This document shows positions 56,316 through 57,337 of a stretch of DNA of 64,000 bases, one piece after another; positions within the stretch are counted from its first letter, which is position 1, and each line of letters begins with the position of its first letter. Made by a program: the position numbers and the translations under genes. The notes beneath the pieces are model-generated. The model ran no database searches. It was given only the letters and a program-made list of their open reading frames with translations, and had not been told where the DNA came from. The stretch covers positions 96,717,552 through 96,781,551 of the forward strand of contig NC_044277.2 of the NCBI RefSeq assembly GCF_004027225.2, read 5' to 3'. This DNA is from Strigops habroptila (lineage: Eukaryota; Chordata; Aves; Psittaciformes; Psittacidae).

Positions 56316-57337
56316 ATGAATGCAGAAGGTGAGAAGAAGCGTGGTCATGTTTCTGCCTCTGGGGACAGGAAGTCCAAGAAGAAGCCTAAGAGGAAGGAAA
56401 CCTATTCAGCCTATATCTACAAAGTACTGAAGCAGGTGAGTGTTTCTTTTCTGCTAGAAACAGCTTCATATGTAAAGTCACTTCTGCCCACTGCATGTTA
56501 ACTGTATAAAGAGTAAGGAAGGAAAATCTGCTTTTTGGGGAGATGGAAAAAGGAATAAGTGGGTACAAGAGAGCCCCAGCTGAGTCTCAAAAGTGTGTGT
56601 GTTGGGGGTTCTGGTCAAAAGGCAAAGCAAGAAATGGGCTTAGATCAGAAAGGGTTTCTCCGTGAGAATAAGCTTTAGTACATAGCTTTGCCTAAAGTAA
56701 TCATTGAGTAAAAGGCAATAGGGCTGGTGTTGACCCTGTGTGTAAGAATTAAAATCTTTCTGGTAGTTCCTGTTGGGGAGATGAGCAAAAGACTTTTCAG
56801 AAGTAGCCATGAGTTGTCTGGGCCTCAGTTGCCTGCATGATCCTGTAGGCAAGACTTGGAGTTCATGTTCCATCTCCACGCCTCACAGGTTGGTTTTCCA
56901 TAAGGGACTGTGTGGAGGCTTCTGCCATTGTAATCCCAAAGCCTCTCTTCAGCCTAATGCAAGTGGCACATGACTTGAAACCCTCAGGGTGGCAAATGAG
57001 GGTCCCTGTAGGGTTTGAGTGCCCTGTCTGAAGGGGGGGAAGTGGGGCCCCCACTTCAGGTGATAGGTGTGTGAGACAGTGCTTTATTACTATCTGGCAG
57101 GTGCACCCAGACACTGGCATCTCCTCTAAGGCCATGAGCATCATGAACTCCTTCGTCAACGATCTCTTCGAGCGTCTGGCCTCGGAGGCCTCACGCCTGG
57201 CCCAGTACAACCACCGCTCCACCATCACCAGCCGGGAGGTGCAGACGGCTGTGCGGCTCCTGCTGCCTGGCGAGCTGGCCAAGCATGCTGTCTCCGAGGG
57301 CACCAAGGCTGTCACCAAGTACACCAGCAGCAAGTGA
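56316..57337 (+). CDS. H2BK1: intron-containing histone H2B variant, probably H2B.K, 118 aa
   Basis: Exon 1 is 56316-56435 and exon 2 is 57101-57337. A 665-bp GT/AG intron falls in phase 0 between KVLKQ and VHPDTG, giving 118 aa against 125 for canonical H2B. The fold is intact: alpha-1 from [10 protein letters not shown], the [11 protein letters not shown] loop, the long alpha-2, [13 protein letters not shown], and the C-terminal helix ending AVTKYTSSK with the lysine that is ubiquitinated in canonical H2B. Compared with canonical H2B I count about ten core substitutions, including SIMNS for [15 protein letters not shown] for NDIFERIAGE, AQYNHR for AHYNKR, and EVQ for EIQ. The tail is shorter and different ([18 protein letters not shown]) but keeps the basic KKKPKRK patch. 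A poly(A) signal, an intron and no histone stem-loop mark it as replication-independent. Human H2BK1 also neighbours ABCF2, which supports the H2B.K call; the symbol is by synteny and divergence, not a tree. Confidence 0.88.

Follow-up and report, generated by a model that had tools for sequence, protein, structure and literature searches.

What is a solitary, spliced H2B gene doing beside ABCF2 in the genome of the parrot Strigops habroptila, and is it the bird ortholog of human H2BK1 (H2B.K)? We addressed this question in a 64,000-nucleotide stretch of the assembly (C1:96717552-96781551), referred to below as the window. The gene encodes an H2B of 118 residues in one intact frame divided between two exons at window positions 56316-57337 on the + strand, as read from the open reading frames and the splice junction. 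The features of the gene, in window coordinates, are as follows.

56252..56258, + strand: promoter TATA box, sequence TATATAA, starting 64 bases 5' of the H2B ATG
56281..56309, + strand: 15-base unit present 1.9 times, TTGCTCTGTTAGAGC, in the presumed 5' UTR just 5' of the H2B start codon (Tandem Repeats Finder)
56316..56435, + strand: coding part of exon 1, the N-terminal tail and first helix to KVLKQ, 40 codons
56436..57100, + strand: GT-AG intron of 665 bases, phase 0 after KVLKQ
57101..57337, + strand: coding part of exon 2, VHPDTG... to TSSK plus the TGA stop, 78 codons
57351..57356, + strand: poly(A) signal AATAAA, 13 bases past the H2B stop

The exon boundaries and the phase-0 intron after KVLKQ that an earlier sequence-only reading had given were exact, and the TATA promoter and AATAAA it named lie at the positions above. 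The splice junction reads AAGCAG/GTGAGTGTTT ... CTATCTGGCAG/GTGCAC, where slashes mark the splice sites. Across the whole 64 kb the + strand contains 6 copies of TATATAA, and the H2B ATG has a G at position -3. When eight promoter motifs were tried, the region within 300 bases upstream showed two CAGGTG E-boxes, at 56187 and 56228, and no match to the remaining seven. With eight motifs tried and seven lacking a match, these E-boxes are not claimed as a FIGLA site.

The encoded protein is an H2B. The whole protein matched the Pfam Histone family at E=2.9e-23, and solved single-copy H2B chains matched at about 1e-52 among the best 60 of 178 matched sequences. Together these values exclude a chance resemblance. 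The chains named 'Histone H2B K' and 'type 1-K', like the rest of those best 60, we take from their names to be canonical or near-canonical H2Bs.

To place the gene among its relatives, the 1.15 Gb host assembly was used for a control search. Exon 2 as the query found 9 places, namely the window gene and 8 other H2B loci (L002-L008 and L018, henceforth the canonical set). The full protein as the query, at E<=10, gave 16 matches: the 8 other H2Bs, the 2 exons of the window gene and 6 weak matches with E from 0.0016 to 6.3. Those six aside, no intronless copy of H2B.K, such as a retrocopy would be, was detected in the full-protein search of the host genome. All 8 other loci are on contigs other than that of the window gene, which is therefore solitary as far as the search reached, as had been proposed. 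Five of the eight canonical genes lie in C3:79.16-79.28 Mb, a cluster that also contains H1 and H3 genes; one is on C38 beside an H2A gene, one at C3:16.4 Mb and one on C25. All eight are intronless, canonical in sequence and 126 residues long with a PEPAK tail, and they are nearly identical to one another.

The 3' ends were compared using the Rfam histone stem-loop model RF00032. No match at the gathering score was found anywhere in the 64-kb window, and none of the 7 Rfam matches obtained at E<=10 between 57000 and 58200 was the histone stem-loop. The element directly follows the stop in 6 of the 8 canonical genes and went undetected after those of L005 (C3:16.4 Mb) and L008 (C25). Genome-wide, where 75 of 252913 candidates were scored, there were 36 matches; the 31 over the cut-off were all on C3:79.16-79.28 Mb or C38, and none of the 36 was near the window gene. 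The contrast that the earlier reading drew with H2B genes ending in a stem-loop is borne out.

The canonical set itself showed some variation. L005 (G000:C3:16444935-16448168, gene on the - strand) is an intronless canonical H2B outside the cluster with a tail beginning PEPAKSTSAPKKG, an H at residue 30 and no stem-loop found; it may be a replication-independent gene of canonical type. L008 (also L019; G000:C25:10751691-10751924, - strand) duplicates one of the cluster H2Bs and has A41 and H72. Its downstream similarity to the cluster gene L004 ends where the stem-loop would begin, which indicates that the stem-loop is missing, and L008 is perhaps a transposed or decaying copy. L018 (G000:C3:79191386-79191619, - strand) is a canonical H2B in which R86 in the DNA-binding loop L2 is replaced by cysteine, with its stem-loop intact. 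L021 (G000:C38:141272-151271) is a small contig that also carries two tRNA genes. Its H2A and H2B genes point toward each other at their 3' ends, and both have a stem-loop; the H2B frame there is given as 991 residues, with unread bases included.

The protein encoded by the window gene is 8 residues shorter than canonical H2B, all of them in the tail, in agreement with the shortened tail noted from the sequence. The tail contains no polyglutamine tract. Over the last 94 residues, 82-84 are shared with the canonical genes of the host genome. Relative to the majority canonical core, the window gene carries S32K, S36T, I39A, V41I, G60S, I69L, I73L, G75S, H82Q, K85H and I94V. Ten of these sites are in the core from residue 36 on, with S32K just before it, and the earlier estimate of about ten core changes was accurate. 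H82Q and K85H are at or beside the DNA-binding loop L2. The net charge, counted as basic minus acidic residues, is +12 compared with +18 for L003. The C-terminal end through TSSK is the same as in canonical H2B and the C-terminal helix is complete; the glutamates of the acidic patch and the ubiquitin site at lysine 120, in the established numbering, are therefore kept.

These data bear on whether the gene is merely a canonical, replication-coupled H2B that moved out of the cluster and kept its ordinary function. The 90-92% identity of exon 2 to the eight canonical H2Bs, the unchanged C-terminal end and a silent-site distance no larger than that between canonical genes would all fit such a move, as would the two canonical genes that likewise have no detected stem-loop. 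However, the window gene has an intron and an AATAAA and lacks a stem-loop, whereas the eight have no intron and hardly differ from one another. Furthermore, nine of its ten core differences are absent from all eight canonical genes, the tenth, S60, occurring also in canonical L002, and canonical bird H2Bs group without it in the tree described below. We consider a relocated canonical gene very improbable.

Substitution rates were also compared. Between the window gene and the eight canonical genes, dN was 0.10-0.12, dS 0.56-0.88 and dN/dS 0.12-0.20; between canonical genes, dN was at most 0.014 and dS 0.13-2.15. The low dN relative to dS fits constraint. Since dS to the canonical genes is no larger than among the canonical genes themselves, silent sites give no sign of an old separation. 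H2B.K has been lost or pseudogenized in rodents according to three papers (PMC8857922, PMC6886504, PMC9526256), and the same fate could be imagined for the bird gene. Here the reading frame, the start codon, both splice sites and the poly(A) signal are undamaged, and the dN/dS values point the same way, so that decay of an H2B variant into a pseudogene is hardly credible.

The agreement with canonical genes at the codon level is uneven along the gene. In the far half of exon 2 (window 57218-57334), 25-31 of 38 comparable codons are the same as in the canonical genes, with 18.6-18.7 of 38 or 20.8 of 39 expected from codon usage. In the near half 17-21 of 30-32 codons are equal, and in the exon 1 part 5-6 of 12, versus about 7 expected. 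Among the 28 canonical-canonical pairs, the far half gave 21-36 of 39, and the dispersed genes L005, L006 and L008 gave 24-25. As read from these codons, the excess in the far half might be a trace of gene conversion with canonical H2B, although it is suggestive only.

A tree of 9 rows was built from the window gene, four of the eight canonical genes, a provisional human H2B.K sequence and three outside rows (L041-L043). Four canonical genes sufficed, L004-L007 having the same core as L003. The outside rows came from 5 loci in bacterial genome bins, apparently eukaryotic contamination, of which L044 (no match to the search peptide) and L045 (a fragment) were left out of the tree. Viral contigs searched for relatives of H2B.K gave none. 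In this nine-row tree, where the bootstrap had not settled and no fork reached the starred level, the canonical bird H2Bs grouped without the window gene (87/90). Grouping with canonical avian H2B, which the sequence-only reading had named as one outcome that would overturn its proposal, was thus not seen, at this rough support. The window gene grouped weakly (59/83) with the provisional human protein, which has 121 residues versus 122 published. That same sequence shares S60, L73, Q82 and V94 with the window protein and is changed at K85 as well, which we regard as a lead and no more.

The features upstream of the H2B gene, in window coordinates, are as follows.

37090..41523, - strand: CHPF2-type gene, divergent from ABCF2 (Pfam CHGN 1.7e-141; N-terminal end placed by eye)
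42421..51776, + strand: ABCF2 coding region from first ATG to stop in several exons, the upstream tandem neighbour (exon peptides read by eye)
52233..52238, + strand: first AATAAA past the ABCF2 stop, about 4 kb 5' of the H2B TATA box

The gene order is CHPF2-type, ABCF2, H2B, ASB10-like, GBX1 and AGAP3-like. ABCF2 gave ABC-F matches, including yeast ARB1 at 5.6e-32, and its presumed name follows from its sequence together with the published place of ABCF2 beside human H2BK1. The CHPF2-type gene matched chondroitin sulfate synthase 2 chains at about 1e-156, and CHPF2 was preferred over its paralog CHPF by inference from position. Downstream of the window lie an ankyrin gene of the ASB10 type (L009-L010), the GBX1 homeobox gene (L012; GBX-1 chains at 1.5e-37) and, on the - strand, an ArfGAP/ankyrin gene of the AGAP3 type (L013). 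The names ASB10 and AGAP3 are provisional, as is the wider human gene order used for comparison, in which IQCA1L, SMARCD, RHEB and PRKAG genes are also neighbours. Three of ten proteins had no Pfam match (window 45791-46126, L010 2035-2349 and L009 4812-5285), and these pieces were read by eye as parts of ABCF2 and ASB10. Crude peptide patterns for SMARCD, RHEB, PRKAG and ankyrin found no match in the window or the fetched flanks, while the homeobox and ArfGAP patterns found one each. Short CR1 LINE-like peptides were also seen at window 48028-48060 (-), 40089-40103 (-) and 19840-19854 (+), which fits the status of CR1 LINEs as a hallmark of bird genomes.

The H2B gene immediately follows ABCF2 on the same strand, 4.5 kb past the ABCF2 stop. 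Its two exons might then be an alternative 3' exon pair of ABCF2 reached by readthrough, not a separate gene, and a rare ABCF2-H2BE1 readthrough has indeed been reported in human (PMC6886504). However, the H2B has its own TATA box and ATG, and the AATAAA at 52233 points to separate ABCF2 and H2B transcripts. The chicken models in that paper also give no evidence of a connection to ABCF2 transcripts (PMC6886504). A readthrough exon pair is therefore exceedingly unlikely. The synteny with human H2BK1 claimed earlier stands, with ABCF2 directly upstream on the same strand as in the neighbourhood described in PMC6886504 and PMC9526256.

The published record describes this gene. Human H2BE1, now H2BK1, is a 122-residue H2B adjoining ABCF2 with oocyte and embryo transcripts, and it is conserved to birds, with the chicken model ENSGALG00000013346 (PMC6886504). 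ABCF2 is also placed beside H2B.K/H2BK1, and birds and reptiles are listed for H2B.K, in PMC9526256. H2B.K occupies a shared syntenic place in chicken and bony fish and is expressed in chicken ovary; all its orthologs have an intron and most of its genes a poly(A) signal (PMC8857922). In mammals, according to the same paper, the protein has a fold near that of canonical H2B, changes around loop L2, a lower charge and a polyglutamine tract in its N-terminal tail, and a looser nucleosome has been proposed for H2B.K in general (PMC8857922). Like the chicken and mammalian genes so described, the window gene lies downstream of ABCF2 and has an AATAAA and two exons whose intron interrupts the histone fold, and its product has few fold changes, some of them around loop L2, a divergent tail and a lower charge. 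It departs from mammalian H2B.K in lacking the polyglutamine tract that has been described for the mammalian tail.

Two further groups of H2B were compared. H2B.N (H2BN1) is mammal-only; its fold has less than 50% identity to canonical H2B, and the C-terminal helix is mostly missing (PMC9526256, PMC8857922). Unlike it, the window protein keeps that helix and has 82-84 of 94 residues as in canonical H2B. It shares the histone fold and C-terminal helix with the canonical set but differs in gene organization, the canonical genes being intronless, 126 residues long, PEPAK-tailed, clustered on C3 in five of eight cases and followed by a stem-loop in six of eight. Sea urchin cleavage-stage H2B, a maternal histone of the early embryo, is a possible functional parallel proposed in PMC8857922; it is intronless, and its orthology is without bootstrap support there.

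Taken together, the ABCF2 position, the intron within the fold, the AATAAA, the missing stem-loop and the place outside the canonical group in a small tree uphold the original identification of a divergent, spliced H2B variant and probable bird H2B.K. We conclude that the window gene is almost certainly the bird ortholog of H2BK1, on the basis of its position, structure and exclusion from the canonical H2Bs and not of grouping with a verified H2B.K. The suggestion that an avian copy newly informs the age and conservation of H2B.K was not supported, since chicken and fish orthologs are already described in PMC6886504 and PMC8857922. Publications of 2019-2022 had reported the chicken ortholog, shown that it is expressed in the ovary and placed the origin of the variant before the bony vertebrates (PMC6886504, PMC8857922, PMC9526256). 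The gene is thus already described in birds, and the Strigops copy is one more bird ortholog. Among the papers listed in literature searches, no dedicated work on avian H2B.K beyond chicken was found, which does not prove its absence.

We propose that the gene's own TATA promoter would drive its transcription in oocytes, an expectation taken from ovary and oocyte expression in the chicken and mammal papers. As general background, oocytes need control of histone mRNA apart from the cell cycle (PMC12803260, in passages that do not concern H2B.K). A spliced, polyadenylated mRNA would escape the regulation by S phase and stem-loop to which canonical histones are subject, and the H2B could be made outside S phase and stored in the egg. 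The protein would pair with H2A and probably enter the nucleosomes of oocytes and early embryos, where its shorter, less basic tail and the L2 changes (H82Q, K85H) may loosen DNA contact and give a slightly looser nucleosome. A bolder idea, for which we would claim only a slim chance, is that bird H2B.K serves as the main maternal H2B, a polyadenylated mRNA store for early cleavage and the vertebrate counterpart of sea urchin cleavage-stage H2B; the intron may then have acted as a shield for the divergent tail and the first helix, with occasional gene conversion keeping the far half of exon 2 canonical.

H2B.K is an old, oocyte-expressed variant whose biochemistry is uncharacterised, and each intact ortholog helps to show what is conserved. 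With the Strigops copy, a family for which chicken, reptile and fish members had been reported gains one more bird. The gene is intact and its product has a short basic tail, no polyglutamine and K85H at L2, so that it can be used in comparisons of which features of human H2B.K are general.
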